16,633 nt of DNA from Sedimentisphaerales bacterium. GTDB lineage: Bacteria; Planctomycetota; Phycisphaerae; Sedimentisphaerales; SG8-4. Position 1 is the stretch's first letter. The number at the start of each line of letters is the position of its first letter. This document shows, one piece after another, positions 701-16,093 of the stretch. The DNA lies in NCBI GenBank assembly GCA_016932895.1, contig JAFGCA010000162.1:1-16633 (forward strand). The letters run 5' to 3'. The notes beneath the pieces were generated by a model. The model did no database searches. It was given only the letters and a program-made list of their open reading frames with translations, and was not told the origin of the DNA. A program made the position numbers and the translations under genes.

Positions 701-703
701 CTT

Positions 704-1714: not shown

Positions 1715-1758
1715 GAATACTGCCTGAGAAAAAAACTACAATTTCTGCCCCGCCTTAG

Positions 1759-1787
1759 AGAATACACAAATCCCCCCCCCAATACAA
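1759..1787 (-). promoter_or_regulatory. Candidate promoter of the activase / glycyl radical enzyme operon
   Basis: On the minus strand a -35-like TTGTAT (1787-1782) and a -10-like TATTCT (1764-1759) are separated by exactly 17 nt. Transcription would start near 1752, about 38 nt before the GTG at 1714. Nine of the 17 spacer bases are an uninterrupted G tract (1780-1772). It is a prediction from box similarity and position only. Confidence 0.45.
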
Positions 1788-1805
1788 CCCCCCGCCAGCC
1801 CCCCC
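1772..1805 (-). promoter_or_regulatory. G-run cluster with G-quadruplex potential overlapping the operon promoter
   Basis: On the minus strand the order is G7 (1805-1799), CTGGC, G6 (1793-1788), TTGTATT, G9 (1780-1772). Loops of 5 and 7 nt, plus the ability to split the G9 run into two G3 tracts, satisfy the usual pattern of four G3 runs with loops of 1-7 nt. The cluster includes the candidate -35 box and most of the spacer. Confidence 0.55.
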
Positions 1806-2102
1806 TTCGCAAACACCAGTGACGCCTCAAGAAGTGATACCACCACTAACGCGTCCCCGTCAAACCGCATGGGACAGACCGAAACCATGACTCTCGTCAT
1901 GGCGGAGCCGACGTGGAAACCCATCTGTTGCCCGCCTCACTCCTCGACAATCCCCCCGCCGCCACCCTCGCCCAACACATCATAAGCCACGGAACCGTCA
2001 CTGCGACCAGCACTTTCCGCTTAATGGTTGACTGCGCCCAATACTCCACAGACTGATTCATGATCTTCGAAGACCATGAGTGTCGCCGTGCAGCCCAAGA
2101 TG

Positions 2103-3476
2103 CTATGTCTTTCGCCTCTTCGCCAATTTTCTCACTTTCCAAAGGAAATAGAAGTCGTCCTGCTGAACGGTTTTTTCTGCATCTCCAAGTGCCATCAGTC
2201 TCTCAAGAAATGTTGAACCGAACGAGGCAATCCCGATTGTCTGAGCCAATTGCGCTATCTCCGCTGGTATCAGGCCGCTCAGAAGACCGAATGAGATCGC
2301 TCCTACCATGCCAGCAAGTGGTCTCGCCGTGGCGCTGACGAGATCCTGCTTTGACCTTTTCACTTTCTGGTCGAGCCTTGCTAACTCGGGTGCCAGCACA
2401 TCACCGTACAGTTCCCGGGCTACTTTGGCAGAAAGTCCGCGCTTCTGATCTCCGTACTCCGAAAGCACCCTGTTGAAAGCAGAACGAAATCGCACGAAGC
2501 TCTCTGCCTCTCGCTCGCGTAACTTGGAAAGCTTGCTGACAGGAACGTCAATCACAAAAGGGACAAGAGCAGTCAGGTGTTTCATTGCGATTGCATTTCT
2601 CCGTTCCAGCGCTATGTCACCTGAGGCTTTGTTCAAAAAGACAAGCTCCAATTCCTTGTTTGTGAGAAAGGATGCCTTCAGACACCGGTTCATGATGGCG
2701 TGGTAGGCCACACTGTGCACAACCTTACCGGCCAAATCATGGTGAATCTTCAGTGCCCTAATCATCGTCTTGGACAGCTTTACTTTCGCGCCCTTTGAAA
2801 GCTGCGCCATGATCCTGGGCCTAGCCTGGAAAGGGCGAGGTACTTCATTATACACCACGACCTGCCCGCATTCAGAATACGGTTCTGGACACGATACCTT
2901 GATCACTATCCATCTTCCTTTCTGGACGGCCGTCGGAACAACACTGTCCAAGAACTCGTCGGCAAGGTCGTTCCACGCATGATGGAACTCTCGCCCACAT
3001 TTTGAGCCAAATCCCAATGCCTGTCCCAAACAGTTCGGACAGAGCCTTTTCTCCGAAGCGAGGATTAAAAGACGTTGCGCCAACAACGGGGCGATGTGGA
3101 GGATGAGCGCTATATCATCATGTAATGTCATTCTCAAATCGTCTATCGAGCGTTCCCTTCTGTGCTCATAGTCACAGAAGAAGTTGCGCACGAACACGCG
3201 ATCACTATAGAATGCCGCGAAACGCGCGAGGCTATCAAGACGGGTTCTTCGACACTCCAAGAACTCGCAGTCGTCACGCCCGCCTCCCAATGAAATGGAC
3301 GCACAGTGTGTAATGGGCGGGTTTAGCACGCTCTCTTCAGGAGACGGTGTCAAGGAGGCGAGGTCCTCGGCAATATTTAGGATTTTGCTTTTGGAAAGGC
3401 ACCTGATCTGCTCATCATTCACGGTTCCCCCTCCGATCAAACCTTTGCGCCCCATATGCTCTAGAAATCTATCCAT
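2103..3476 (-). CDS. Hypothetical protein with a zinc-ribbon-like Cys pair and hydrophobic C-terminal segment
   Basis: 457 aa, not recognised. The start is supported by a GAGGAG ribosome site 9 nt before the ATG at 3474-3476. Visible features: a CPNC motif at residues 146-149 followed by C160 (with C70 and C75 earlier), possibly a metal site; several scattered Cys and His; a basic, charged stretch at about 315-380; a mildly hydrophobic Gly/Ala/Leu-rich segment at about 386-420 that could be one or two membrane helices; and a C-terminal DDFYFLWKVRKLAKRRKT ending. Sampled 60-base lines inside it are about 45-47% GC, against about 65% in the plus-strand cluster, and codon use looks more relaxed, so recent acquisition is plausible. 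It stands alone on the minus strand beside a gene-poor repeat region. No function is proposed. Confidence 0.75.
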   Translation of the reverse strand: MDRFLEHMGRKGLIGGGTVNDEQIRCLSKSKILNIAEDLASLTPSPEESVLNPPITHCASISLGGGRDDCEFLECRRTRLDSLARFAAFYSDRVFVRNFFCDYEHRRERSIDDLRMTLHDDIALILHIAPLLAQRLLILASEKRLCPNCLGQALGFGSKCGREFHHAWNDLADEFLDSVVPTAVQKGRWIVIKVSCPEPYSECGQVVVYNEVPRPFQARPRIMAQLSKGAKVKLSKTMIRALKIHHDLAGKVVHSVAYHAIMNRCLKASFLTNKELELVFLNKASGDIALERRNAIAMKHLTALVPFVIDVPVSKLSKLREREAESFVRFRSAFNRVLSEYGDQKRGLSAKVARELYGDVLAPELARLDQKVKRSKQDLVSATARPLAGMVGAISFGLLSGLIPAEIAQLAQTIGIASFGSTFLERLMALGDAEKTVQQDDFYFLWKVRKLAKRRKT

Positions 3477-3760
3477 TGTCCAACGCTCCTCAGGCGACCC
3501 AAGACCCCCACTTATTCTCCCTGTCTTGTCTCAATAACCAGGAATAGCCAGCTAGTCTCTAATTATCCTGTCTGGCTTACCTCCCTGCGTTCCCACTTGC
3601 GTGGGCACCCCACTCATTTGGCCCTCTACAGGACTACGGCCTTACGACGTTTATCGGGGCCGTGTGAAACTGGCAACGACAATCACCGTTTTCGGCCCAA
3701 TCTCTGTCTCCTCGGACCCCTGAACACGAGACGACCCATCTGGCCTTGAAGTCGATGTTT

Positions 3761-3931
3761 TCATGCCGATTCGGCGCGCGGCACGCCGAGGAGGTTGGCC
3801 TGCACGGACTCTGCGATGGTATCGCGGAGAAACTCCCTGGCGTTGAGAATAACGAACCTCTCCGCCTTGACGCGGTCCAGGCAACATCCACTGAACATCG
3901 TTCCTTCTCGCGACTCCGAACGACCATACAT
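3761..3931 (-). CDS. Possible small ORF of 45-56 aa, unknown
   Basis: This minus-strand frame is too short to be listed by most gene callers. It starts either at the ATG at 3929-3931 (56 aa) or at the internal ATG at 3896-3898 (45 aa), the latter preceded by GAAGGA at short spacing. The internal part, from the LDRVKAERFVILNAREFL segment to QANLLGVPRAESA, has protein-like composition and third-position GC bias, unlike the two other frames on this strand. A TATACT box lies at 3946-3941, just before the first ATG. It may be a real small protein, a degraded end of a larger gene, or chance. Confidence 0.25.
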   Translation of the reverse strand: MYGRSESREGTMFSGCCLDRVKAERFVILNAREFLRDTIAESVQANLLGVPRAESA

Positions 3932-4059
3932 CTGCCATAAGTATAGCCGATTAGAGAAATAGGGTCAATGCGACAGTATACGATTGTCCGGCTGCGCGGA
4001 TCTGAAATCGAGAGACCGGCGTCCGCTGGGTCATGTCCCTCTGCGATTCCAGTTTTCGC

Positions 4060-4088
4060 TTGACGGGGCCATAGCTATCTGATATATA
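4060..4088 (+). promoter_or_regulatory. Near-consensus sigma70-type promoter reading into the repeat array
   Basis: TTGACG (4060-4065) and TATATA (4083-4088) are separated by exactly 17 nt (4066-4082). This is the best housekeeping-type promoter match I found in the window. The predicted start near 4095 lies about 140 nt before the first repeat copy and some 835 nt before the BNR lipoprotein gene. It should give either a long repeat-containing leader or a separate non-coding transcript. Confidence 0.55.
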
Positions 4089-4236
4089 AAGATCAAATAG
4101 GACACACTCTCGATAGGAAGCAGGAAATCGAGAATCATGGCGAGCGAAGCAAACATCACACAACCCAGACCAGACGTTAGCAACGGCCGCGAATCCATGG
4201 CCCGCCGGCTGCGCGGGCTCCGGGCGGACGTTGTGC

Positions 4237-4787
4237 CAAACGAACCCAATCTGCGTTGCCGGCAGCGGCAAGGCCCGACACCGGAGGAGTCCCTCCGGCC
4301 TACCGGATCGTGTCAAACAAAGCCAATCTGCTTGCCGGGCGGGTGGCGGCCGAGGCCCCCGCCGTGTCAAACGAACCCAATTTCTGCGTTTTTGGCCTGG
4401 AAACGGGAGTGGCGATCAAAAACGAAGCCAATTCGCCCGGGCCCAGGTGGCCCCGGGAAAGCCGAAACTCAAAACAAGCGCAAGAAGCGAATGGCCCAAA
4501 CACGCAGGAAACGCAAAACAAAGCCAATTGGGCCTGCGCCACGTGCGGCAGAGACCACCGGTCGGGCAGGCGCGCCAAACGAACCCAATTTCTGCGTTTT
4601 GAGGCTGGAAATTGGGGTGGCGGTGAAAGAAGGAAGCCAATTTCCTCCGTCTTGGCCTGGAAATGGACGCGGTGGCGGAAACGAAACCAATCTGCGTTGC
4701 CGGCAGGGTCGAGACCGAAGGCGAGAGCCATTCCTGCAGCCTACAGCCTCCGGCCTCCAGCCTCTCCCCGTGTCAAACGAACCCAAT
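4237..4787 (+). repeat. Degenerate interspersed repeat array, core CAAACGAACCCAAT
   Basis: Nine copies of a 13-15 nt core lie on the plus strand: CAAACGAACCCAAT at 4237, 4368, 4576 and 4774, and variants ending in AAGCCAAT or AAACCAAT near 4314, 4418, 4515, 4627 and 4678. Spacings are irregular (77, 54, 50, 97, 61, 51, 51, 96), with a recurring unit of about 51 nt. Two flank types follow the core: one with TTCTGCGTTTT and GGCCTGGAAA or GAGGCTGGAAA (4368, 4576), and one with CTGCGTTGCCGGCAG (4237, 4678). In different frames the core encodes QTNPI, NEPN or KRTQF, so gene callers will make false proteins here. From memory, such peptides are common among spurious predictions in Phycisphaerae genomes. 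A perfect hairpin, CCGGAGG-AGTC-CCTCCGG (4281-4298), sits between copies one and two. No open frame here looks like a real protein. Confidence 0.8.
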
Positions 4788-4823
4788 TTCACCGAGGCGG
4801 AGGAGAAATGCCATGCTAAGGTG

Positions 4824-4851
4824 TTTACACATAAATGCTTACGAGTACACT
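4824..4851 (+). promoter_or_regulatory. Candidate promoter of the BNR lipoprotein gene
   Basis: A -35-like TTTACA (4824-4829) and a -10-like TACACT (4846-4851) have 16 nt between them. The start would be near 4858, giving a leader of about 70 nt to the ATG at 4930. It lies just after the repeat array in a short AT-richer stretch. Box matches are moderate. Confidence 0.4.
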
Positions 4852-4929
4852 GGGGCATTGTCGGCGTCATGATCGAGAGCCGGATGGAACGAAACCAGGC
4901 ACGAAGGTTGGAATTGGGAGGACCGTATC

Positions 4930-5970
4930 ATGAGAATGTGCAGGGGTTTGTGGGCATTGACGGTCGCGGTCGCTGTCGGAGGTTGTGCGATGGCCGGGGG
5001 CAATGATCCGAGTTCGGGATCGATCAAGCAGGCGGGGCTGATCTTCCCGCTGGAGGGCCGACCGACGCCGGGCTGCCACGCCTCGACGATCGAGCAAACG
5101 ACCGCCGGGCAGATCGTCGCGGCCTGGTTCGCCGGCGCCGACGAGGGCGAGGACGACGTGGGGATCTGGGTCTCCCGCCTCGAAAACGGCACGTGGTCGC
5201 GCCCGGTCGAGGTCGCCAACGGCGTCATGTCGCCCCAGAAGCGCTATCCCTGCTGGAATCCCGTGCTGTTTCAGCCCAGAAACGCCCCGCTGGTGCTGTT
5301 CTTCAAGGTGGGACCGACACCCGATGGATGGTGGGGAGAGATGATGATCTCGACCGACGAGGGCAAGACCTGGACGAGCCGCCGGCGGCTGCCGCCGCAC
5401 GTGATGGGGCCGATCAAGAACAAGCCGATCCAACTCGACGATGGGCGGGTCCTCTGTGGCTCCTCCAGCGAACACGAAGGCTGGCAGGCGCACGTGGAAA
5501 TCACGAGCGACTCGCGCGACTGGTCGGTGGTGGGTCCCCTTAACGACCCCTCGAAAATCTCGGTCATTCAGCCGACGCTTCTGACCTATCCCGACGGCCG
5601 GGTGCAGATGCTCTGCCGCACGCGCCGCGAGCGCTTCATCGCCCAGTGCTGGTCCAAGGACGGCGGAAGAACCTGGGGCGAGATGACGGCTACCACCCTG
5701 CCCAACCCGAACTCGGGAATCGATGCGGTCACCCTCGCCGACGGCCGGCAGTTGCTGGTCTTCAACAACGTCCCGCGGGGCCGGACCCCGCTGAACGTGG
5801 CGATCTCCACCGACGGCAAGCAGTGGGACGTCGTCGAGACGTTGGAGACGCAGCCGGGCGAATATTCCTACCCCGCCGTGATCCAGACGGCCAACGGCCT
5901 GGTCCACATCACCTACACGTATCGCCGCCAGAGCATCAAGCACGTCGTGCTGGACCCGAAGGCGCTGTAG
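4930..5970 (+). CDS. Sialidase-fold (BNR repeat) lipoprotein, probable glycan-active enzyme
   Basis: 346 aa. The start is fixed by GGAGG 8 nt before the ATG. An N-terminal hydrophobic segment ends in a lipobox with Cys19 (AVAVGGC), so the protein is probably lipid-anchored outside the inner membrane. Asp-box/BNR elements recur: STDEGKTW (141-148), SKDGGRTW (242-249) and STDGKQW (293-299), as expected for a six-bladed beta-propeller. HASTIEQ (50-56), AAWFAGADEGEDDVGIWVSR (64-83) and the RYPCWNPVLF...LFFKVGP block (105-129) are typical of the BNR_2 / exo-alpha-sialidase-like family in planctomycete polysaccharide loci. Many members are not true sialidases and act on other acidic or deoxy sugars, so the substrate is left open. 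The gene opens the plus-strand cluster and is followed 69 nt later by a sulfatase, which fits degradation of a sulfated glycan. Confidence 0.85.
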   Translation: MRMCRGLWALTVAVAVGGCAMAGGNDPSSGSIKQAGLIFPLEGRPTPGCHASTIEQTTAGQIVAAWFAGADEGEDDVGIWVSRLENGTWSRPVEVANGVMSPQKRYPCWNPVLFQPRNAPLVLFFKVGPTPDGWWGEMMISTDEGKTWTSRRRLPPHVMGPIKNKPIQLDDGRVLCGSSSEHEGWQAHVEITSDSRDWSVVGPLNDPSKISVIQPTLLTYPDGRVQMLCRTRRERFIAQCWSKDGGRTWGEMTATTLPNPNSGIDAVTLADGRQLLVFNNVPRGRTPLNVAISTDGKQWDVVETLETQPGEYSYPAVIQTANGLVHITYTYRRQSIKHVVLDPKAL

Positions 5971-6039
5971 CGTGACATCGGCGCAAGCGTCCCACGACAC
6001 CTGCGTCAAAACTGGAAATTCTTTTCGGAGAAGCACGCC

Positions 6040-7488
6040 ATGTCAAAGACCGACCGATTGAGCCGCCGACGTTTCCTGGGACACATGGCCGCGGCAGCGG
6101 CGTGGCCTTGTTTGAGCCCGCTGTCTCGAACCGGCGCTGCGCCGTCTCCCTTGGCCCGCAGGCCCAACATCGTCTTCATTCTCGCCGACGATCTCGGCTG
6201 GAAAGACCTCGGCTTCATGGGCAGTGCCTACTACGAGACGCCGAATCTCGACAAGCTGGCCGGCCAGGGCGTGGTCTTCACCAGCGCCTACACGAACGGC
6301 CCGAACTGCGCCCCGACGCGCGCGAGCCTGATGTCGGGACAATACACCCCGCGTCACGGTATCTACACGGTGGGCAGCTCCGAGCGGGGACAGGCCAAAC
6401 ATCGCAAGCTCATCCCGACACCCAACCAGACCACGCTGGACGCCGAGGTCGTGACATTGGCCGAGGCGATCAAGGGCGCCGGCTACGTCAGCGCCAGCAT
6501 GGGCAAGTGGCACTTAGGCAACGACCCGGAATTAGGGCCGCTCGGACAGGGTTTCGACCTCAACGTCGGCGGCTACGAGGCCGGGGCCCCCAGGAGCTAT
6601 TTCAGCCCGTACCGCAATCCGGAGCTGGCCGACGGACCCAGAGGCGAGTACCTCACCGACCGCCTCACCGACGAGGCCCTGAAGTTCATCGAGGCTCATC
6701 GCAGCGAGCCGTTCTTCCTGTACCTGCCCCATTACGCCGTGCATACCCCGCTCCAGGCGAAGAAGGAGCTGACGGAGAAGTACGCACAGAAGGCCCCGGA
6801 CAACGGCCAGGGCAACCCGAAATACGCCGCGATGATCGAGAGCCTCGATGCGGGCGTCGGCCGGATCATGGACAAACTGGATGAATTGTCCCTGACAAAC
6901 AACACGGTCGTGGTCTTCTTTTCCGACAACGGGGGCGTCAAAAACATCACCTCGCAGGCACCGCTGCGCGGCGGCAAGGGCATGCTGTACGAAGGCGGGG
7001 TTCGTGTCCCGCTGGCGGTGCGCTGGCCCGGGGTGGTGACGCCGGGACGCGAGTGCCGCGAGCCGGTCATCGGCATCGATTTCTATCCGACCCTGCTCGA
7101 AATCGCCGGGGCCACCAGGCCACAGGGGCAAATCCTCGACGGGCGCAGCATCGTGCCCTTGTTGCGCGGCGCGGAGACGCAGGCCCCCCGGGCCCTGTTC
7201 TGGCATTTTCCCGCGTACCTGCAAGGCAAGGCCGAGGGCGCGCGCGACGAGCGCTTTCGGACACGGCCGGCCGGAGCGATCCGGCTCGGTGATTGGAAGC
7301 TGATCGAGTACTTCGAAGACGGAACCCTCGAACTCTATAACCTCAAGGGCGACATCGGCGAAACCACGAACCTCACCGCCGAGCTGCCCGAGAAAACCAA
7401 TGAACTGCACGAGAAGCTGATTCAGTGGAGGCAGTCCGTAAACGCTCCCGTGCCCACCGAGCTCAATCCGAAGTACGAGCCGCAGTAA
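6040..7488 (+). CDS. Tat-exported arylsulfatase-type (S1 family) sulfatase
   Basis: 482 aa, the usual length for an S1 sulfatase. It should remove sulfate esters from sugars outside the cytoplasm. The N-terminus has a twin-arginine signal (SRRRFLG, residues 8-14, then an Ala-rich hydrophobic stretch). The maturation motif is C90-A-P-T-R, where Cys90 must be converted to formylglycine; in an anaerobe this needs a radical SAM maturase not present in this window. Other catalytic or metal positions visible are D50/D51 (ILADDLGW), K156/H158 (GKWHLG), H235 (YAVHTP), D296/N297 (FSDNGG) and K313 (RGGKG). A GGAG ribosome site lies 9 nt before the ATG. The fold domain is complete, and the C-terminal DGTLELYNLKGDIGETTNL block is typical. 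Exact sulfatase subfamily and sugar position cannot be read from sequence alone. Confidence 0.94.
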   Translation: MSKTDRLSRRRFLGHMAAAAAWPCLSPLSRTGAAPSPLARRPNIVFILADDLGWKDLGFMGSAYYETPNLDKLAGQGVVFTSAYTNGPNCAPTRASLMSGQYTPRHGIYTVGSSERGQAKHRKLIPTPNQTTLDAEVVTLAEAIKGAGYVSASMGKWHLGNDPELGPLGQGFDLNVGGYEAGAPRSYFSPYRNPELADGPRGEYLTDRLTDEALKFIEAHRSEPFFLYLPHYAVHTPLQAKKELTEKYAQKAPDNGQGNPKYAAMIESLDAGVGRIMDKLDELSLTNNTVVVFFSDNGGVKNITSQAPLRGGKGMLYEGGVRVPLAVRWPGVVTPGRECREPVIGIDFYPTLLEIAGATRPQGQILDGRSIVPLLRGAETQAPRALFWHFPAYLQGKAEGARDERFRTRPAGAIRLGDWKLIEYFEDGTLELYNLKGDIGETTNLTAELPEKTNELHEKLIQWRQSVNAPVPTELNPKYEPQ

Positions 7489-7498
7489 CGGCCCCCGC

Positions 7499-7562
7499 GT
7501 GCATTTTGGGAAGCAATTCTGCGCATAATGGGATTGTCTCAAATTCGCCTATGTTCTACAGT
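7499..7562 (+). promoter_or_regulatory. Copy A of shared operator/promoter, upstream of the pseudopilin gene
   Basis: Conserved with copy B (9667-9730): TTTTGGG (7504-7510), 8 variable bases, then CTGC-R-CAT-W-ATGG-K-ATTGT (7519-7537). Within it, GCATTTTGGGA (from 7501) and GCATAATGGGA (from 7523) form a direct repeat with 22-bp periodicity. The end overlaps a candidate -35 TTGTCT (7534-7539), followed 17 nt later by TACAGT (7557-7562). It ends 83 nt before the ATG. This is the layout of an AraC/XylR-family activator site; the regulator encoded at 8465 is the natural candidate. Confidence 0.6.
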
Positions 7563-7619
7563 CAGGGTAGAATTGCAGCAGAACAGATGCCTGTCTTGTG
7601 CATGCTGGGAAGGTGAAGT

Positions 7620-8363
7620 ATGAAGTCCAAGAGACATGGATCGGGTTTTACGCTCATCGAGCTCCTGGTGGTCATCGCAGTGATCGCGGTGCTGATGGGG
7701 ATTCTGCTGCCCGCCCTCGGCCGAGCGAGGAAACAAGGCCAGGGGGTCGCCTGCCTGAACAACCTCAAGCAGATCGGTTACGCGATGTATATGTATGCCC
7801 AGGACAACGACAGCAAGGTACTGCGGGCCGAAGCCCGCATGAACCTTAAGCCGGGCCAAGACCCCGCGTTCTGGGCGACCGCGTACATGGGGTATGTCGG
7901 CGGTTCGAAGACCGACGACGTGAGCTACTATTACGAAGTCGACGCCTATGACTGCCCCAGCTATCCGGAACGGGAGCAGACGATCGATTACATCGTCAGC
8001 TCGTTCAATTTCCAAAACCCCGAGGGCGAATGCTGGGACCCGACGCCCCTGGCGAACTTCCCCCGGCCGGGTTCGACCATCTACATGGCCGATTATGCGT
8101 ACCATCAGGTTTCGCCGCCTTTCCAGATGGTCCGCAAGGAGGACGTGCAGGACCCGGAAGCATTCCGAAAGAAGCTCTGGTGGCTGGACGCCTACAAAGC
8201 CGCGCACTTGCCGCATGCGGGGGACAACTCGCGACGCATAGCGCGCGATCGCCACGGCAAGAACACCAACTGCCTCTTCGTCGACGGCCATTCGGGCAAA
8301 ATGAACTCGATGGACATGACCACCTACGACTGGGGCCTGCCCCGAACCTACGATACGCCGTAG
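7620..8363 (+). CDS. Type II pseudopilin-like protein with H-X9-DG motif
   Basis: 247 aa. The start is set by GGGAAGGTGAAGT directly before the ATG. A short basic leader ends at G9-F10, then comes the prepilin methylation helix [18 protein letters not shown] with Glu at mature position 5. PilD-type peptidase would cut before F10 and leave a membrane-anchored, externally exposed protein. [10 protein letters not shown] block follows the helix, and the C-terminal half has the [14 protein letters not shown] motif near 232-244, the H-X9-DG signature of the large, mostly uncharacterised pseudopilin-like families of Planctomycetota. No other secretion gene is near, so it is a lone surface protein placed among glycan genes, and its promoter motif is shared with the DUF5060 enzyme. 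A role in holding substrate or enzymes at the cell surface is speculation. Confidence 0.88.
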
Positions 8364-8464
8364 CGGTGTTGGCCGAGCCCGGCCTTTACGCCGGCACCCT
8401 TGAACGGTACAATGCCTCCGATTCGCGAAACTGGAATGGTTAAGCGTGGAGTGCGTAGCCGGAC

Positions 8465-9634
8465 ATGTTCAAGGCGCCGAAGGTCATCCTGCTGATCGCC
8501 CCGACGCGGGCGTTCGACCGGGGTCTGCTCCAGGGGATCGCCCGCTACGCCAACGAATACGGCCCGTGGACCTTCTACCGGGAGCCGCCGCACTACCAGG
8601 CCATCGACTGGAAGAAGAAGGTCACCGACCGGCTCCGCAGCGGGCAGGTCGACGCGATCATCATGCGCGAGCCCGAGCGGATCGACGAGATCATCCAGTG
8701 CCGCGTCCCCGCCATCTGCGCGCCGGTGACGAAACGCACGATCGAAGGATTCGTCAACATCACCATCGACAACGAGTCGGTGGGCCGGCTCGGCGCCGAG
8801 CATCTGCTCCACTGCGGTTTCCGGCATTTCGCGTACTGCGGGTTCGAAGGAATCTACTGGTCGGCCAGGCGCGGCGAGGCGTTTCGGCAGCGCATCGCCC
8901 AGGCCGGGCATCCCTGCACCATGTACGCGCCGCCGCCGTCGAAGCGCGTCCGGGAGCTCTATGAGAAGGAGCAGCCGCGGCTGGTGGACTGGCTCCAGTC
9001 CCTTCCCAAGCCCGTGGGCGTGATGACCTGCAACGACGACCGCAGCCAGCACGTGCTCGACGCCTGTCACGCCGCCCAGATTCACGTGCCCGGCGAGGTG
9101 GCGATCATCGGCGTCGACAACGACGAGTTCATCTGCCGGCTGGCCAACCCCCCGCTTTCGAGCATCTGCCTGCATCCGGAGAAGCTCGGCTACCGCGCCG
9201 CCCAACTTCTCGACGCCGTCATGGCCGGTCGCAAAAGCGGCGACAACACCGTCGTCGGCGGACCGACCCACGTGATCGCCCGCAGCTCGACCAACATCCT
9301 GCTCGTGGAAGACGACGACATGGTCGAGGCCCTGCGATACATTCGCGACCGGTCCGATGAGCCGCTGCAGGTGAACGACGTGGCTACGGCGGTCGGGATG
9401 TCACGCCGGACCCTGCAGTACCGCTTCTCCAAGGCCGTCGGCCGGTCCGTCCATTCGCAGATCCTCCGCGAACGCGTCAACCGAATCACGCAACTGCTCG
9501 TCGATACCGACCTGACCGTCGCCCAGATCGCGGGCGAGCTGAATTTCTCCAGTCCCAAGCAGTTGGATCGAGTCTTCACCAAATTTCAGGGCATTCCGCC
9601 GACCACGTACCGCTCGCGGTACTGCATCCGATGA
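8465..9634 (+). CDS. XylR-type regulator: LacI-like sugar-binding domain plus AraC HTH
   Basis: 389 aa cytoplasmic transcription factor, standard length for the XylR family. Residues 1-275 form a periplasmic-binding-protein-like sensor (LacI/Peripla_BP_3 type), with KVILLIAPTRAFDRGLLQGI at the N-terminus, GVMTCNDDRSQHVLDAC (185-201) and VAIIGVDNDEFICRLANPPLSSI (212-234). Residues 285-386 are an AraC-type double helix-turn-helix with VNDVATAVGMSRRTLQYRF (303-321) and TVAQIAGELNFSSPKQLDRVF (351-371), ending in GIPPTTYR. By analogy with XylR it should bind a sugar or sugar acid and activate catabolic promoters. It lies between the two genes carrying the shared direct-repeat operator, which are its best predicted targets. 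The ribosome site is weak (GGAG about 13 nt upstream of the ATG). Confidence 0.93.
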   Translation: MFKAPKVILLIAPTRAFDRGLLQGIARYANEYGPWTFYREPPHYQAIDWKKKVTDRLRSGQVDAIIMREPERIDEIIQCRVPAICAPVTKRTIEGFVNITIDNESVGRLGAEHLLHCGFRHFAYCGFEGIYWSARRGEAFRQRIAQAGHPCTMYAPPPSKRVRELYEKEQPRLVDWLQSLPKPVGVMTCNDDRSQHVLDACHAAQIHVPGEVAIIGVDNDEFICRLANPPLSSICLHPEKLGYRAAQLLDAVMAGRKSGDNTVVGGPTHVIARSSTNILLVEDDDMVEALRYIRDRSDEPLQVNDVATAVGMSRRTLQYRFSKAVGRSVHSQILRERVNRITQLLVDTDLTVAQIAGELNFSSPKQLDRVFTKFQGIPPTTYRSRYCIR

Positions 9635-9639
9635 TCGTC

Positions 9640-9675
9640 GCGGCGCCACCGCCGGCTGCCGCCGCTGCGCGTTTT
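9640..9675 (+). terminator. Possible weak terminator after the regulator gene
   Basis: GCGGCG (9640-9645) can pair with CGCCGC (9660-9665) around a GC-rich loop, and TTTT follows at 9672-9675. The T run is short and is shared with the start of operator copy B, so this may be a regulatory overlap or simply GC-rich sequence. Confidence 0.25.
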
Positions 9676-9730
9676 GGGGTATGGGTCTGCACATTATGGT
9701 ATTGTTCCCGAGACGTCCATCGGACATACT
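9667..9730 (+). promoter_or_regulatory. Copy B of shared operator/promoter, upstream of the DUF5060 enzyme operon
   Basis: Aligns without gaps to copy A (28 of 42 bases identical over 9667-9708). TTTTGGG (9672-9678) and CTGCACATTATGGTATTGT (9687-9705) are the conserved blocks. GCGTTTTGGG (9669) and ACATTATGGT (9691) form a direct repeat with 22-bp periodicity. A candidate -35 TTGTTC (9702-9707) and -10 CATACT (9725-9730) have a 17-nt spacer. The motif ends 84 nt before the ATG at 9789. It probably drives the operon from 9789 onward. Confidence 0.6.
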
Positions 9731-9788
9731 GCTGGTTTCGTCTTGCCAAACGAGTGCGTTCCTGGAACTGTAAGGAGGTCAATGAATC

Positions 9789-12746
9789 ATGAGACGCCAA
9801 CCGAAGTACCTCGTACCGGGTCTGCTGATCGCTCTGTTGTTGTGCTCCGCGTCGTGGGCCGGTGCTATCTCGGGTGAGCTCAAGACCTGGCACAAGATCA
9901 CCCTCACGTTAGACGGGCCCGAGACGAGCGAGACCGCCGAGCCCAATCCCTTCAGCGACTACCGCCTGAACGTCACGTTCTCCAAGGGCGCCACGACGTA
10001 CAGCGTCCCGGGCTACTATGCCGCCGACGGCAACGCCGCCAACAGCAGCGCCTCGTCGGGAAACAAGTGGCGGGTCCACTTTGCCCCTTGCGAGGCGGGA
10101 CGGTGGCAGTACCGGGTGACGTTTCGCAAGGGCCGCCACGTCGCCTTCAGCGACGACCCGCAGGCGGGGACTTCCGCCGGCTACATGGACGGCGAGACCG
10201 GCAGCTTCCGGGTCGCCCCCACCGACAAGCGCGGCCGCGACAACCGCGCCAAGGGCCTGCTCCAATACGTAGGCGAGCACTACCTGCGCTTCGCCGGCAC
10301 CGGCGAGTACTTCCTCAAGGCCGGCGCCGACGCGCCCGAGAACTTCCTGGCCTATCGCGACTTCGACGGCGACTTCAAGAACGACGGCCAGAAGGACAAC
10401 CTCATCAAGGACTGGGCCCCGCACATCAAGGACTGGAAGCCCGGCGATCCGACCTGGCAGAACGGCAAGGGCAAGGGAATGATCGGGGCGATCAACTACT
10501 TGGCCTCCAAGGGCATGAACGTCTTCTCGTTTCTGCCCATGAACATCGGCGGCGACGACCGCAACGTCTTTCCGTACCTCACCTACGACGAGCGGTTGCG
10601 CCTGGACTGCTCCCGGCTGGACCAGTGGGAGATCGTCTTCGAGCACGCCGACACGCTCGGCATGTACCTGCACTTCAAGACGCAAGAGACCGAGAACGAG
10701 CTGCTTCTCGACAAAGGCGATCTGGGCCCGCAGCGCAAGCTCTACTACCGCGAGCTGATCGCACGCTTCAGTCACCACCTGGCGCTGAACTGGAACCTCG
10801 GCGAGGAGATCAACGACGCCACACACGAGCAAAAGGTGGCCTGGGCCAACTACTTCTGGACGCACGACCCGTACCAGCACCACATCGTCATCCACAACAT
10901 GGGCGATCCCCATTACGACCTGCTGGGCGACGCCTCGGCGCTGACGGGCTTCTCTCTGCAAACCAGCAAGCCCGACTTCAGCGAGGTCCACCGGCGAACG
11001 CTCGACTACGTCAAGCGCTCGGCAGCAACGGGCAAACCCTGGGTCGTCGCGTGCGACGAGCCGGGCGACGCCACCCACGGGCTGATCACGGACGCCGAGG
11101 ACCCCACCCGCGACAACGCCCGCAAGAACGCCCTGTGGGGCGTCTTCATGGCCGGCGGCGCGGGCATCGAGTGGTACTTCGGCTACAAGCACCCACACAG
11201 CGACCTGACCTGTCAGGACTACCGCTCGCGCGACAAGATGTGGGACCAGAGCCGTTACGCTCTCGAGTTCTTCCGGAAACAGGACATCCCCTTCTGGGAG
11301 ATGACCAACGATGACGATCTGACCGACAATCCGGACGACTACTGCTTCGTCAAGCCGGGTGAGGTCTACCTGGTCTACCTCAAGCACGGCGGCACGGTCC
11401 GCCTGGACGTCACGCAAGGCGAATTCACCTGCGGCTGGTTCAACCCGCGCACCGCAGACGGACTGACCGAACTGCTCGGCAAACGCACGGTCGAGGCAAA
11501 GGCCAAAACGCAATGGGCCGCGCCCGACGACAACGACTGGCTCCTCGTCGTCAGAGGCAAGGGCAAGGTGCAACTGGCCTCGGACGCCCCGCCCCCACCG
11601 CCGGTGAAACCGACCGTCAAAGGCGAGATCGTTCTCGACGCGCTGCGCCACTTCCGCATCGTCGAAGGCGACGGCTTCGTGCCGGCCTACAAGGACCAGG
11701 GACACAACGCCCTGGCGATCGACCCGGACCGGTACAAGGACAAGTTCGGCGCCGCCGAGACCACGTTCGCCGGCAAGCCCGGTGTCTACGACATCACGCT
11801 TGCGACCATGGCCGAGACCGACGGCGAATCCACCTACAGGCTCCGCATCGCCGGCGCGCTCGTCGGAGAATTTACGAACCCGAAGACCTCCGTGGACTAC
11901 AAGCCCACCGACAAGACGTGGAAGAAAGTCACGGTCGGCAAGGAAGCGAAGATTCGCGTCGAATTCAACACCGCCACCAACAGCAAGACGCAACAGGGCA
12001 ACCGCAAGGCCTACGCCCGGGGACGCTGGACCAAACTGACCTTCACGCCGCCGGGAGCCCGGCCGGCGAAAACGACGGCTCCAATCGTCACGCCTGCCCC
12101 GATCGAGACCGGGACCGATATCGTCTTCGAAGAGCGCGACGGCCTGGTCGCCGTCGAGGCCGAGCACTTCTTTCAGCAGACCCAAGCCGGTAAGCGTCGC
12201 TGGTACGTCACCACGAGCGACCGGACGCCGAGCGTCCAGCCCGACGGGGACGACAACCACGCCGCCAAAGCCGGTGCCGGCGCCTACGTGGAAGTCCTTC
12301 CCGACACGCGGCGCACGCACGGCGACAAGCTGATCGCCGGAGAGAATTTCTGCAACGATCCGGGCCGGATGGCCATCCTGTCCTACAAGGTGCATTTCAA
12401 CACGCCCGGCCGGTACTACGTGTGGGTCCGCGCCTATTCCACCGGCAGCGAGGACAACGGCCTCCACGTCGGCCTCGACGGCGACTGGCCCGCCTCGGGA
12501 CAAAGACTCCAGTGGTGCGAAGGCAAGCAGTCCTGGTGGTGGGAGAGCAAGCAACGCACCAACGCCGAGCACTGCGGCGAGCCGTACAAAATCTACCTCG
12601 ATATCGAAAAAGCCGGCCTGCACACCATCTCCTTTTCGATGCGCGAGGACGGCTTCGAGTTCGACAAGTGGCTCATGACCACCGACCGCAACCTGAAGCG
12701 CCCCGACGACGCCGGACCCGGCGAACGAATCCGCAACGCCGGATGA
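9789..12746 (+). CDS. Secreted DUF5060 putative glycoside hydrolase with C-terminal accessory domains
   Basis: 985 aa. A full Shine-Dalgarno AAGGAGGT (9772-9779) lies 9-10 nt before the chosen ATG; a second ATG at 9782 is only 2 nt from it and out of frame. A signal peptide covers about residues 1-26 (hydrophobic core then SWAGA). Residues 28-145 are a DUF5060 beta-sandwich. Residues 155-505 look like a TIM-barrel hydrolase: NWNLGEE (334-340) and VACDEPGD (420-427) would place Glu339/340 and Glu424 as the catalytic acid/base and nucleophile of a clan GH-A-like enzyme. Residues 525-590 (VYLVYLKHGG, GWFNPRT, DWLLVVRG) resemble the putative collagen-binding beta domain that usually follows such barrels. 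After a PPPPP linker comes a beta-rich domain (612-755), then a GH115-C-like domain (775-965: GLVAVEAEHF, RYYVWVRAYS, FEFDKWLM). Substrate unknown; sulfatase and uronate-type transporter neighbours point to a sulfated acidic glycan. Confidence 0.9.
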   Translation: MRRQPKYLVPGLLIALLLCSASWAGAISGELKTWHKITLTLDGPETSETAEPNPFSDYRLNVTFSKGATTYSVPGYYAADGNAANSSASSGNKWRVHFAPCEAGRWQYRVTFRKGRHVAFSDDPQAGTSAGYMDGETGSFRVAPTDKRGRDNRAKGLLQYVGEHYLRFAGTGEYFLKAGADAPENFLAYRDFDGDFKNDGQKDNLIKDWAPHIKDWKPGDPTWQNGKGKGMIGAINYLASKGMNVFSFLPMNIGGDDRNVFPYLTYDERLRLDCSRLDQWEIVFEHADTLGMYLHFKTQETENELLLDKGDLGPQRKLYYRELIARFSHHLALNWNLGEEINDATHEQKVAWANYFWTHDPYQHHIVIHNMGDPHYDLLGDASALTGFSLQTSKPDFSEVHRRTLDYVKRSAATGKPWVVACDEPGDATHGLITDAEDPTRDNARKNALWGVFMAGGAGIEWYFGYKHPHSDLTCQDYRSRDKMWDQSRYALEFFRKQDIPFWEMTNDDDLTDNPDDYCFVKPGEVYLVYLKHGGTVRLDVTQGEFTCGWFNPRTADGLTELLGKRTVEAKAKTQWAAPDDNDWLLVVRGKGKVQLASDAPPPPPVKPTVKGEIVLDALRHFRIVEGDGFVPAYKDQGHNALAIDPDRYKDKFGAAETTFAGKPGVYDITLATMAETDGESTYRLRIAGALVGEFTNPKTSVDYKPTDKTWKKVTVGKEAKIRVEFNTATNSKTQQGNRKAYARGRWTKLTFTPPGARPAKTTAPIVTPAPIETGTDIVFEERDGLVAVEAEHFFQQTQAGKRRWYVTTSDRTPSVQPDGDDNHAAKAGAGAYVEVLPDTRRTHGDKLIAGENFCNDPGRMAILSYKVHFNTPGRYYVWVRAYSTGSEDNGLHVGLDGDWPASGQRLQWCEGKQSWWWESKQRTNAEHCGEPYKIYLDIEKAGLHTISFSMREDGFEFDKWLMTTDRNLKRPDDAGPGERIRNAG

Positions 12747-12803
12747 ACACGCTGCAATACGGGCATCTGCACCAGTACGTTCAATGAAAGAAGACCACGA
12801 ATC

Positions 12804-13868
12804 ATGACGCAAAAGTACAAGATCGCGATTGTCCCCGGCGACGGGATCGGCCACGAAATCATTCCCGCCGGCGTCGGCGTGCTCGAAGCGGCCGCCGAAC
12901 GCTTCGGCTTTACGCTGGCGACGGAGACGTTCCCCTACGGTGCCGGTTACTACAGGGCAACCGGGGCATTTCTCCCGCCCGATGCGCTCGAGACGTTGAA
13001 GCAATTCGACGCCATCTACTTCGGCGCCGTCGGCCTGCCGGACGTGGATGACACCCTGCCGGCCAAGCTGTTCACCTTCAACATCCGAACGAGCTTCGAG
13101 CAATACGTGAACTACCGGCCGGCGCGTCTGCTGCCCGGGATCGAAAGTCCGCTGCGGGGCAAGACGCCCGCCGACATCGATTTCGTCGTCATCCGGGAAA
13201 ACACCGAAGGCGAATTCGTGCAGGTCGGCGGTTTCGTCCAGCCCGGCCTCGATTCCGGCCTGGCGCTGGACACGAGCATCTTCACGCGGCGCGGGATCGA
13301 ACGCATCGCCCACTATGCCTTCCGCCTGGCCCGGCGCCGCCGGCGCAAGGTGACCAACATCACCAAGTCCAACACCCTGATCCACTCGCTGGCGTACTGG
13401 GACCGCGTCGTCGAGCAGGTCAGCGGCGACTATCCCGACGTCGAGTATCGCAAAATGTACGTGGACAACGCCTCGGCCAACTTCGTGCTGCATCCCGAGG
13501 GCTTCGACGTGATCGTGACCACCAACTTCATCGGGGACATCCTCAGCGACCTCGGCGGTGCGATCATGGGCAGCCTGGGTCTGGGCCCCAGCGGCAACAT
13601 CAACCCGGAGAAGGACTATCCCTCGATGTTCGAGCCGATTCACGGCTCGGCGCCCGACATCGCGGGCAAGGGCATCGCCAATCCGATCGGCGCGATCTGG
13701 TCGGGGGCGCTGTTGCTGGAGCACCTGGGCGAGACCGCCGCCGCCGAGACCATCATCAAAGCCATTGAAAAGACGGTAGCCGTCGGTATACTGCCGGTGG
13801 ACCTGGGCGGTTCCGCCCGCACGGCCGAAATCGCTGACTGCATAACGAAGAACCTGCAAACGCTCTAA
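12804..13868 (+). CDS. Isocitrate/isopropylmalate-family dehydrogenase, tartrate/D-malate dehydrogenase-like
   Basis: 354 aa, full length. These are cytoplasmic NAD(P)- and divalent-metal-dependent enzymes that oxidise a 2-hydroxy acid and usually decarboxylate it. Visible motifs: IVPGDGIGHEI (9-19), FGAVG (73-77), R95 in the NIRTSFEQYVNYRPARLLPG block, IRENTEGEF (130-138), catalytic K188 in NITKSN, VTTNFIGDILSDLGG (238-252) with the metal Asp residues 245 and 249, and HGSAPDIAGKGIANP (280-294). The block after FGAVG and the QYVNYRPARLLPG wording are closer to tartrate/malate dehydrogenases than to LeuB or Icd. It lies 57 nt after the DUF5060 gene and 6 nt before a cyclase-family hydrolase, so it is a catabolic enzyme here and not leucine biosynthesis. 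The true substrate is probably a sugar-acid-derived hydroxy acid and is unproven. Confidence 0.9.
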   Translation: MTQKYKIAIVPGDGIGHEIIPAGVGVLEAAAERFGFTLATETFPYGAGYYRATGAFLPPDALETLKQFDAIYFGAVGLPDVDDTLPAKLFTFNIRTSFEQYVNYRPARLLPGIESPLRGKTPADIDFVVIRENTEGEFVQVGGFVQPGLDSGLALDTSIFTRRGIERIAHYAFRLARRRRRKVTNITKSNTLIHSLAYWDRVVEQVSGDYPDVEYRKMYVDNASANFVLHPEGFDVIVTTNFIGDILSDLGGAIMGSLGLGPSGNINPEKDYPSMFEPIHGSAPDIAGKGIANPIGAIWSGALLLEHLGETAAAETIIKAIEKTVAVGILPVDLGGSARTAEIADCITKNLQTL

Positions 13869-13874
13869 CGATTG

Positions 13875-14507
13875 ATGTCTCGAATACTCGATTTGACGGT
13901 ACCTCTGCAAGACGGCATGCCGGGCGTCTCCATCGAACCGGCCAGGACCGTGGACGAAGACGGCTGGAACGCCACGACGCTGCACCTCTACTCGCACTGC
14001 GGGACCCACATGGACGCCCCGCTGCACTTCGGCGTCAGCAGACAGAGCATTGACGAGATTCCGCTGGAGCACTTGATGGGGCCGGCGTGGGTGGCGGACC
14101 TGTCGGGCATCGAGCCGCGTGCTCTCATCGAGGTCGGCGACGTCGCCGGCGCGGTGCCGCACCTGAAAGCCGGCGACGGACTGTTGCTTCGCACCGACTG
14201 GAGCCGGCGCCTGGGCGATCCGTCCTATCGCAACGCTCTGCCCCGCGTGAGTCTCGATCTGGCCCGGTGGTGCGTGGATCGGGGCGTGCGTCTTCTCGGG
14301 GTCGAGCCGCCGTCCGTGGCCGACGTTCACAACATCGAGGAATTGACGGCCGTGCATACGGTGTTGCTCGAAGGCAATGTCGTCGTGGTCGAAGGGTTGG
14401 CCCATCTGGACCAGATTCGCAAGGACAAGGTGATCTTCATGGCGTTTCCGCTGAAGGTCGCCGGCGGAGACGGCGCGCCGGTGCGGGCGCTGGCCATCGA
14501 GGACTGA
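13875..14507 (+). CDS. Cyclase-family metal-dependent hydrolase (kynurenine formamidase-like fold)
   Basis: 210 aa from the ATG at 13875; a TTG one codon earlier also keeps the frame, but the ATG is preferred. Stop TGA at 14505-14507. The hallmark H41-x-G-T-H45-x-D47-x-P-x-H51 (HCGTHMDAPLHF) binds Zn or Mn in this family, which includes KynB, isatin hydrolase and many unassigned cyclases. The start LDLTVPLQDGMPGV and the C-terminal FMAFPLKVAGGDGAPVRALA are also characteristic. It is 6 nt after the dehydrogenase gene with almost no ribosome site, suggesting translational coupling. In this setting a role in opening a lactone or hydrolysing a sugar-acid intermediate fits better than tryptophan catabolism, since no kynurenine genes are near. 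That is inference. Confidence 0.88.
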   Translation: MSRILDLTVPLQDGMPGVSIEPARTVDEDGWNATTLHLYSHCGTHMDAPLHFGVSRQSIDEIPLEHLMGPAWVADLSGIEPRALIEVGDVAGAVPHLKAGDGLLLRTDWSRRLGDPSYRNALPRVSLDLARWCVDRGVRLLGVEPPSVADVHNIEELTAVHTVLLEGNVVVVEGLAHLDQIRKDKVIFMAFPLKVAGGDGAPVRALAIED

Positions 14508-14565
14508 AAGACCCGGCCCGCGCGAGGTCTCCACAATACGAGTATAGAGGACGAGGATCGACGAT

Positions 14566-16005
14566 ATGACCACATCCCCGCCACGTATGAGTCGCCAGCG
14601 CTTCATTCTCATCGGCATCCTGTTCTTCCACAGCGTCAACACCTACATGGACCGCGCGTGCATCGCCTCGGCCGTGGACTATATCAAGAGGGACCTCTCG
14701 ATATCCAAGGAGCTGATGGGCCTGGTGCTGGGCATCTTCGCGGTGGGGTACGCCTTGTTTCAGGTGCCTTCCGGCTGGATTGCCGACCGCCTCGGCCCGC
14801 GCAAGGCGCTGACCATCGTCGTGGCCGTCTGGAGCGCGTTTACCGCGCTGACCGGCGCGGCACGCAACGCCCTGCAAATGCTGACCCTGCGCTTTCTGTT
14901 CGGTGTGGGCGAGGCCGGCGCTTTTCCCGGCGCCGCCCAGGCGTTCTTTCGCTGGCTGCCCGTCAAGGACCGCGGCTTCGCCCACGGGATCAACTTCTCC
15001 GGCAGCCGCCTGGGAGCGGCATTCTCCCTCTTCTTGATGCCGTGGCTAATTCTGCAGATCGGCTGGCGGTGGACGTTCGCGGTCAACGGACTGATTGGAG
15101 TGGTCTGGGCCACCGTGTGGCTCATCTGGTTCCGCGACAACCCGAAGGATAATCCCAAGGTCAACCGGGAAGAGCTGGAGTACATCGAGCGAGGCCGCGT
15201 CAGTGACTTCACCGCCACGGTGAAGGCCTCGTTTGCGGAAGTCTTCACCTCGCTGAATATGTCACTGGCCATGGTGCAGTATTTCGCCAGCAACGTAACG
15301 TTTTTCATCAGTCTGACCTGGCTGCCCTCGTACCTTAAGAACCAGTGGCCCAACGATCCGCGGGCGGTGTACTGGTCGGCGGCGCCGCTGATCTTTGCGG
15401 CCTTTGCCAACTGGATCGCCGGCGCCATGGTCACGCAGTTGTTCCAGCGAGGCTATCACGTGGGCTCCCGCCGGGCCACAGCGATCGTGGGCTTCGCGCT
15501 CGGCGTGCTGGGATTGCTGCTGGCCACGCAGACGAACAATCTGTACGGATTCGTCTTTTGCTTTAGCCTCGCGACGTTCGGGGTGGACATGACACTGAGC
15601 CCGAGCTGGGCCTTCTGCAACGACATCGGCGGCGCCAACTCCGGCGCCGTGTCCGGCTCCATGAACATGGTGGGCAACATCGGGGCGGCCCTGAGCGCCA
15701 TCGCGTTTCCGCTTCTCCAGAACCAGGAAACCGGAAATGCCAATACCTTCTTCGTCGTGGCGGCCGTCTTGAACTTCGTGGCCATCGCCGCCTGGTGCGT
15801 CATGAACCCCAACCGCGTCTCCGACAGGAAGCTCTCGCCGGCCGCCATTCGCAAGCGCTTCATCACCATGCTCACCGCGCTGTTCGTCCTGACCGGTGCG
15901 GCGGTGGGCTTCAAGATCTACCGCTCCCTCGAAAAGAAACCGACCCCGGTGGCCGAGCCCAACCAGACCGACGCCAACGAGGTGACCGATGCGAATCAAC
16001 CGTAG
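14566..16005 (+). CDS. MFS transporter, anion:cation symporter (hexuronate/glucarate-type), with extra C-terminal helix
   Basis: 479 aa. Inner-membrane secondary transporter. Motif A-like FAVGYALFQVPSGWIADRLG (loop 2-3), MDRACIASAVDYIKRDLSIS after TM1, the FLFGVGEAGAFPGAAQAF block in TM4-5 and FRDNPKDNP at the central loop are typical of the ACS family (ExuT, GarP, GudP), whose substrates are hexuronates, aldarates and related organic acids. Twelve membrane segments fit the length up to about residue 415. After that comes an unusual basic stretch, a thirteenth hydrophobic helix (about 431-450) and a polar, Asn/Thr-rich tail. The ATG at 14566 follows AGAGG/GAGG ribosome sites. It lies 58 nt after the cyclase-family gene, in the same operon, and probably imports the acidic sugar released by the exported enzymes. 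Confidence 0.92.
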   Translation: MTTSPPRMSRQRFILIGILFFHSVNTYMDRACIASAVDYIKRDLSISKELMGLVLGIFAVGYALFQVPSGWIADRLGPRKALTIVVAVWSAFTALTGAARNALQMLTLRFLFGVGEAGAFPGAAQAFFRWLPVKDRGFAHGINFSGSRLGAAFSLFLMPWLILQIGWRWTFAVNGLIGVVWATVWLIWFRDNPKDNPKVNREELEYIERGRVSDFTATVKASFAEVFTSLNMSLAMVQYFASNVTFFISLTWLPSYLKNQWPNDPRAVYWSAAPLIFAAFANWIAGAMVTQLFQRGYHVGSRRATAIVGFALGVLGLLLATQTNNLYGFVFCFSLATFGVDMTLSPSWAFCNDIGGANSGAVSGSMNMVGNIGAALSAIAFPLLQNQETGNANTFFVVAAVLNFVAIAAWCVMNPNRVSDRKLSPAAIRKRFITMLTALFVLTGAAVGFKIYRSLEKKPTPVAEPNQTDANEVTDANQP

Positions 16006-16017
16006 AGAGTAAAAGTC

Positions 16018-16036
16018 ATCGCCGCCTCGCGGCGAT
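16018..16036 (+). terminator. Hairpin after the transporter gene (possible attenuator or weak terminator)
   Basis: ATCGCCGC (16018-16025) pairs perfectly with GCGGCGAT (16029-16036) around a 3-nt loop, 12 nt after the transporter stop. No clean T run follows directly (TCCGGAATTTTGATT). It may reduce, not end, transcription into the oxidoreductase gene, or protect the upstream mRNA end. Confidence 0.4.
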
Positions 16037-16075
16037 TCCGGAATTTTGATTCTTGCTATTTGATCTTTGATTTTG

Positions 16076-16090
16076 CATGCCGGAGGCATG
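16076..16090 (+). promoter_or_regulatory. Hairpin containing the ribosome binding site of the Gfo/Idh gene
   Basis: CATGCC (16076-16081) and GGCATG (16085-16090) form a perfect 6-bp stem with a GGA loop, and the Shine-Dalgarno GGAGG (16082-16086) lies in the loop and 3' arm. The site is 7 nt from ATG 16094 but only 1 nt from the in-frame ATG at 16088, which decides for 16094. The fold could lower translation of the gene. Confidence 0.45.
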
Positions 16091-16093
16091 ACG

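Follow-up and report, generated by a model that had tools for sequence, protein, structure and literature searches.

What is the role of the two matching segments that precede a pseudopilin gene and the gene of a DUF5060 enzyme in a 16,633-nucleotide stretch of DNA from a Sedimentisphaerales bacterium (contig JAFGCA010000162.1 of assembly GCA_016932895.1, positions 1 to 16,633 of the forward strand, hereafter the window)? The first-pass annotation of this stretch had taken them for a shared regulatory site that couples a pseudopilin to a polysaccharide-degrading operon. The reading strongly favoured here is that both segments would be operator-promoters controlled by the XylR-type regulator whose gene lies between them, working by class II activation. 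In this mechanism a dimer of the regulator would bind two direct half-sites in each segment (about TGCGCATTTTGGG and TGCGCATAATGGGATTG) that lie two helical turns apart, the proximal one overlapping a poor -35 hexamer. The ligand of its LacI-like domain would be glycan-derived, a sugar or sugar acid that is released as the polysaccharide is broken down, and the liganded regulator would recruit the sigma70 RNA polymerase to both promoters. Copy 1 (7499-7540) would drive the pseudopilin gene and probably also the regulator gene 101 nt behind it, giving positive autoregulation, and copy 2 (9667-9708) would drive the DUF5060 enzyme gene with the operon that follows. Sites of this type are also present in relatives before the gene of a secreted F5/8-type protein and, in one genome, at a second, unlinked pseudopilin locus.

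The two segments and the regulator gene between them

Realignment of 7499-7540 with 9667-9708 returned the ungapped 42-bp match with 28 identities that had been described, the top-scoring pairing of that length for the two intergenic regions. None of 2000 dinucleotide shuffles of both regions reached 28/42, the best shuffled match having 26 identities. Note that the length of 42 was the choice of the first-pass annotation; the observed best was matched by 8, 15, 6 and 1 of the 2000 shuffles at lengths of 19, 22, 30 and 35, respectively, so that the support for the match rises with length. TTTTGGG is identical in both copies, as annotated, and the 19-base block 7519-7537 / 9687-9705 does differ at three positions. 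The distances of 83 and 84 nt to the start codons are correct from the ends of this block (7537 and 9705, to 7620 and 9789), and not from the ends of the 42-bp segments, from which they are 80 and 81 nt. The H-X9-DG motif ascribed to the pseudopilin can be read directly in its translation.

A score of 28/42 is not decisive by itself because other diagonals of the window attain it as well: there are 30 window-wide and, of the 15 listed, 8 fall within the repeats at 4.2-4.8 kb and 7 elsewhere. Those repeats form a cluster of imperfect direct copies at 4220-4790 (CAAACGAACCCAATTTC-like units, five copies of 32 nt plus longer families) and resemble a repeat family dispersed over intergenic regions. 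The pattern TTTTGGG-N7-TCTGCNCATNATGGNATTGT, which was derived from the two copies themselves, has these copies as its only matches in the window at up to three mismatches. The reality of the match is settled by its conservation in other genomes, where sites of this kind precede pseudopilin and DUF5060 genes, which supports the annotated shared regulatory site over a random repeat. The match is real and, judged from sequence, the two segments are very probably functional.

Each copy consists of two 17-bp half-sites in direct tandem repetition with a period of 22 bp (Table 1). Over the aligned sites of the window and of the genomes that carry an ortholog of its regulator (clade sites; 16 in the anatomy alignment, 17 once the one at locus L105 was added), the mean self-match is 9.24/15 at period 22 as compared to 2.18-5.76 at periods 15-21 and 23 (17 sites). 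The repeat is plainest in L005, in which TGCGCAAAATGGGCATT is followed by TGCGCAAAATGGGATTG. The end of the proximal half-site provides a sigma70-like -35 and the mean TATAAT-likeness behind it reaches 3.5/6 at a spacer of 17 bp, against 0.56-2.25 for every other spacer between 0 and 57 (16 sites). At least three TATAAT matches are present at spacer 17 in 13 of these 16 sites and the remaining three have theirs at 16 or 18, so that overlap of the proximal half-site with the -35 and a -10 at 16-18 bp are found in 16/16 clade sites, with weak hexamers. Direct half-sites about two helical turns apart, characteristic of class II activation, are found both in the clade (22 bp) and in the sister code described below (21 bp).

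The gene between the copies codes for a protein with a LacI/GalR-like ligand-binding domain (Peripla_BP_3, E 1.6e-37) and a carboxyl-terminal AraC-type double helix-turn-helix (HTH; HTH_18, E 1.8e-19). Its best PDB match is Escherichia coli XylR (4fe4, E 5e-46), its residues 3-384 (of 389) aligning co-linearly with residues 4-385. None of the 10 scanned proteins of the window belongs to a xylose-pathway family. Copy 1 lies upstream of both the pseudopilin and the regulator genes, and copy 2 starts 31 nt past the regulator stop codon, upstream of the DUF5060 enzyme gene; a generic terminator scan called no plus-strand terminator in 7400-9850. Three elements went unnoticed in the first-pass annotation: the motif is a 22-bp tandem repeat that runs into a -35/-10 promoter, the gene between the copies codes for the protein that probably binds them, and the code is one of a larger family.

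A protein bound at these operators might also repress. The LacI-like sensor domain is compatible with a LacI-style repressor that covers the -35 and is released by the glycan ligand, and a proximal half-site that overlaps the -35 suits repression as well as activation. This alternative is given a small but real probability. The AraC-type DNA-binding domain, the tandem direct repeats, an overlap limited to the first half of the -35 and the weakness of both hexamers fit activation. Vibrio XylRA, which shares this architecture, is an activator whose sites consist of two direct repeats, according to the accessible part of its description (PMC12125979), and AraC-family proteins are reported to bind direct repeats in the available part of a further source (PMC9723621). 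These two analogies support activation by the window regulator.

Related genomes and the sister code

A protein search with the regulator gave 4179 matches; the 120 listed comprise full-length relatives at 68-86% identity, some at 58-63% and then proteins at 52% or less. Genome contigs were scanned with an alignment of 41 relatives, which found 118 stretches encoding such proteins. The best 80 were taken, corresponding to 5 orthologs (L001-L005, 62-78% identity) and 75 paralogs (38-47%; of 113 found).

The two-copy pattern was scanned over the related genomes, as the first-pass annotation had proposed, and found 10 sites at up to three mismatches in four of the five ortholog genomes, the reversed pattern finding 0. 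At up to four mismatches there are 2-3 sites in each of L001-L004 and one, at four, in L005. Nine of the 10 sites are at the regulator locus and the tenth (genome G001, position 6046567) lies 83 nt before another pseudopilin gene. The locus of this tenth site (L091, G001:C1:6038000-6056000) combines the clade operator with two pseudopilin genes, a XylR paralog of 40% identity and a group of fucose-isomerase, FGGY-kinase and SSF-symporter genes. A refined pattern gave 15 sites in 5 of the 161 genomes of the order of G001, with 0 in the reversed-pattern control, and a protein search found the regulator ortholog (62-78%) in exactly the same five. A further 85 of the 161 genomes have weaker regulator matches only (among the matches listed, the best E is not below 7e-116 and identity does not exceed 48%), and the clade motif at up to six mismatches is found at 0 of the 75 paralog loci. 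The nominal Fisher P of 1e-9 for the co-occurrence of motif and ortholog is only a guide, given the relatedness of the genomes and the derivation of the refined pattern from the very sites that it re-finds; for the latter reason, the independent evidence is that of the two-copy pattern together with the absence of the motif elsewhere.

The 15 refined-pattern sites and the two of the window precede pseudopilin genes (6), DUF5060 enzyme genes (6), genes of F5/8-type secreted proteins (4, the domain being assigned by Pfam in two and by similarity in two) and the gene of another apparently secreted protein (1, in L005). This distribution, with 2-4 sites per genome before orthologous genes, supports the reading of the first-pass annotation. 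Equal spacing holds for the pseudopilin and DUF5060 sites, which end 71-86 nt before the start codon (10 of 12 measured), and fails for the F5/8-type sites, which end about 188-288 nt before the gene. Between operator and F5/8-type gene, a common block GGAGGCGTGTGATG.C...CGGC.GGA.GGAGGCAGGATTCG is seen in L001:5863-6150, L004:5891-6159 and L105 (minus strand, behind the site); it could be a leader peptide or an RNA element. Pseudopilin orthologs with 49-51% identity adjoin four of the five regulator orthologs, and DUF5060 enzyme orthologs with 67-71% identity lie downstream of an operator copy in L001-L005.

The absence of the clade motif from the 75 paralog loci led to a sister code. In these loci (1.16 Mb), 17 pairs of TGCGCAAAATG with up to two mismatches each are spaced by 21 bp, and 0 or 1 pairs by every other distance from 12 to 44. 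A looser cut-off gives 35 pairs at 21 bp, of which 29 lie within 400 bp of the regulator gene, in 5.1% of the bases (one pair, that of L073, overlaps on both strands and so contributes two to the 29). The reversed half-site yields no peak at the stricter cut-offs and, at the loosest, 4 pairs at 21 bp, 3 at 24 and 3 at 29. Counted from the first base of its proximal half-site, the sister code tends to have a -10 at 37 nt (mean TATAAT match 2.77/6, with 2.49 as the highest value at any other offset), which is the offset of the clade sites with a less marked peak. Two other probes were abandoned for the paralogs: the full half-site TGCGCATAATGGGATTG was too specific (1-3 pairs, all at 21) and TGCGCA alone gave no useful spacing peak.

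The sister code is a tandem CGCAAAATGG with a 21-bp period. Searched as CGCAAAATGG-N11-CGCAAAATGGCGTT, it has 108 sites in 44 of the 161 genomes versus one control match. A regulator match at E ≤ 1e-60 is present in 90 of the 161 genomes and in 40 of these 44 (nominal P 1e-8, the overlap being counted by eye from tables). It was not found at up to three mismatches in the two Pirellulaceae/Rhodopirellula genomes tested. Four Verrucomicrobia genomes, picked because loci came from them, hold 10 sister-code sites, two of which precede a prepilin motif; the link to pilins is weaker there. The window motif is read as the 22-bp clade version of a family-wide operator because the paralogs hold the 21-bp sister code.

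The possibility that the site is bound mainly by another regulator, such as a XylR paralog encoded elsewhere in the genome, draws on the 2-5 proteins of this type that each of the five genomes has at E ≤ 1e-60, the ortholog included, and on the clade site of G001 that adjoins a 40%-identical paralog. It is judged improbable, for the motif is found only where the ortholog occurs and flanks the ortholog gene in all five genomes. In addition, the second HTH reads SSxKQLDRVF in the six clade members compared and differs, being mostly HI(A/S)RYF-like, in 18 paralogs with sister-code sites and in the L091 paralog, a difference that may be tied to the change of half-site. Still less probable is a promoter of an alternative sigma factor that would serve cell-surface genes independently of the adjoining regulator. 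The near-constant distance from block to start codon for two kinds of gene would suit it, but the -35/-10 spacing is sigma70-like, the distinctive part of the motif recurs 22 bp away, the presence of the motif tracks the regulator ortholog and sister-code sites gather around the genes of paralogous regulators. A dispersed repeat, an RNA leader element or a chance match, suggested by the other window pairs that reach 28/42, is hardly credible given 2-4 sites per genome before orthologous genes with little similarity outside the promoter, an element that lies upstream of the -10 and a window in which no Rfam family and no tRNA was matched.

Several observations weigh against operator-promoters of the XylR-type regulator, in addition to the relatedness of the genomes and the origin of the refined pattern. 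A TATAAT-like hexamer of equal or better quality occurs elsewhere in the 40 nt behind the motif in 7/16 sites, among them the window pseudopilin promoter with TAGAAT at spacer 28, and a generic promoter scan called neither promoter, its single promoter-like site being 8385-8413. The distal half-site is poor at the L001 pseudopilin site, and there are four mismatches in the L002 DUF5060 site and four in the best site of L005. The L005 regulator has no adjoining pseudopilin and the second L005 site precedes the apparently secreted protein, while the unlinked G001 site could belong to the 40%-identical paralog beside it. Six of the 35 sister-code sites lie away from the regulator gene and 4 of the 44 sister-code genomes have no regulator match at E ≤ 1e-60. 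Finally, a XylR-like gene lies no more than 600 bp away in only 29 of 59 rows of sister-code sites, on short loci; the 59 rows include four duplicates (L117/L137, L118/L149) and amount to 55 sites, 16 of which precede a pilin-like open reading frame (ORF) identified by motif.

Pseudopilins and other genes of the window

Eight of the 21 pseudopilin ORFs in the 75 paralog loci have a 21-bp tandem at most 420 nt upstream; spacings of 19, 20, 22 and 23 give 0, 0, 0 and 1, respectively. In the chromosomes of two metagenome-assembled genomes (G030 and G031, all sites of each on one contig), 12 of 26 sister-code sites (8/16 and 4/10) are followed by a TIGR02532 match within 450 nt on the same strand. 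This class makes up about 2% of genes, if one gene per 1.15 kb is assumed, so that about 0.5 would be expected among the next genes of the 26 sites. TIGR02532 matches were counted because a mechanical choice of ORFs misassigned some downstream genes, and 12/26 is a lower bound that rests on the matches listed (25/46 in G030 and 23/42 in G031). Conversely, just 12 of the 88 prepilin-motif matches of both chromosomes lie behind a site, a lower bound at this stringency. The matches to this motif number 100 in G001, 77 in G004, 46 in G030 and 42 in G031. The same four genomes have 10-30 T2SSF-domain matches and one prepilin-peptidase match each, that of G004 below cut-off. For one sister-code site (G030:C1:399291-399325) the distance to the prepilin-motif match that follows is only 43 nt, so that either the transcript has almost no leader or the start lies elsewhere. 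The annotated coupling of the pseudopilin to a polysaccharide-degrading operon is supported by the same kind of site before pseudopilin genes in relatives, and it is not a quirk of the window locus because sister-code sites precede pseudopilins in other genomes.

The genes around the operators are listed in Table 1. The window pseudopilin does not classify as GspG, the major pseudopilin of type II secretion (TIGR01710, 34.9 bits for a cut-off of 88.85). The Iso_dh-like gene is found behind the DUF5060 gene in L001-L004 and, in L005, upstream of the regulator together with cyclase and MFS genes. The window also codes on its minus strand for a 457-residue ORF without Pfam or NCBIfam match at E 0.001 (2103-3476) and for a glycyl-radical-enzyme activating protein (704-1714, TIGR02494); no glycyl radical enzyme was found among the 10 window proteins scanned.

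Table 1. Positions of the candidate regulatory elements and of genes in the window.
Feature	Position	Strand	Basis
Sulfatase gene	6040-7488		Family scan
Distal half-site, operator 1 (CGTGCATTTTGGGAAGC)	7498-7514	+	22 bp upstream of proximal half-site; period 22 in 17 aligned clade sites
Proximal half-site, operator 1 (TGCGCATAATGGGATTG)	7520-7536	+	Clade site alignment
Sigma70-like -35, TTGTCT	7534-7539	+	First half overlaps proximal half-site
Sigma70-like -10, TACAGT	7557-7562	+	17-bp spacer; mean TATAAT match peaks there in 16 aligned sites
H-X9-DG pseudopilin gene, prepilin N-methylation motif	7620-8363	+	PF07963 and TIGR02532 above cut-off
XylR-type regulator gene (LacI-like sensor, AraC-type HTH), presumed binding protein	8465-9634	+	Pfam Peripla_BP_3, HTH_18; XylR 4fe4 match
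Distal half-site, operator 2 (TGCGCGTTTTGGGGTAT)	9666-9682	+	Clade site alignment
Proximal half-site, operator 2 (TGCACATTATGGTATTG)	9688-9704	+	Clade site alignment
Sigma70-like -35, TTGTTC	9702-9707	+	Aligned clade sites
Sigma70-like -10, CATACT	9725-9730	+	17-bp spacer
DUF5060 enzyme gene (DUF5060, Collagen_bind_2, GH115_C)	9789-12746	+	Family scan
Isocitrate/isopropylmalate-dehydrogenase-like (Iso_dh) gene, probable operon member	12804-13868	+	Family scan, gene order
Putative cyclase gene, probable operon member	13872-14507	+	Family scan, gene order
MFS transporter gene, probable operon member	14566-16005	+	Family scan, gene order

Known systems and biological meaning

E. coli XylR (PDB 4fe4 and 4fe7), on which the window regulator aligns over residues 3-384, joins an AraC DNA-binding domain to a LacI/GalR-like ligand domain, and its xylose operators are direct repeats beside the promoter. 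The window operators also share the layout of the AraC I1-I2 class II operator, with direct repeats about two helical turns apart and the proximal one overlapping the -35, whereas sequence, sensor domain and ligand class differ. In contrast to E. coli XylR, the targets here are a pseudopilin and a polysaccharide enzyme, and the half-site code, GCGCA plus AAAATGG or TTTTGGG, does not appear to be the AT-rich xylose code as given in the accessible part of the XylRA study (PMC12125979). That part presents Vibrio XylRA, whose domain architecture is that of the window regulator, as a positive regulator of a beta-1,3-xylan degradation locus that has predicted two-direct-repeat sites at several promoters and whose binding was tested by electrophoretic mobility shift assay. 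XylRA differs in its AT-rich repeats, its xylose ligand and its host group, the Gammaproteobacteria, and no pilin gene is mentioned in the same part of the source.

At least 41 N_methyl/SBP_bac_10 pilin-like genes per genome are reported for Planctomycetales in the available part of another study, which gives no regulator or regulatory site for them (PMC8567305). These proteins are of the same kind as the window pseudopilin; the L001 ortholog also matches SBP_bac_10/DUF1559, whereas the window protein, unlike them, matched N_methyl only. Neither this operator code nor pseudopilins in XylR-type regulons are described in the literature searched, which was mostly at abstract level and included few subscription papers. 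The architecture is of a known kind, and what would be new is the code and the pseudopilins as recurrent members of the regulon.

A wider proposal, which we consider possible though rather doubtful, is that each XylR-type glycan regulon of Phycisphaerae and relatives brings its own pseudopilin. Some of the tens of pilin-like genes per genome would then code for substrate-specific subunits, each induced by the sugar that one polysaccharide releases. Mounted on a common type II/type IV pilus-like machine, these subunits would serve in the capture, processing or uptake of that polysaccharide. Its odds are reduced because only 12/88 prepilin-motif matches lie behind a site.

With this code, the operators of many glycan-type regulators can be read in Planctomycetota and in the four Verrucomicrobiota genomes tested, which makes their regulons predictable from sequence. 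The findings also bear on the question of why 42-100 pilin-like genes are maintained in these genomes, one of which genes follows 12/26 operator sites in two chromosomes, though only 12/88 are so placed, and the role of pseudopilins in polysaccharide use becomes directly testable.

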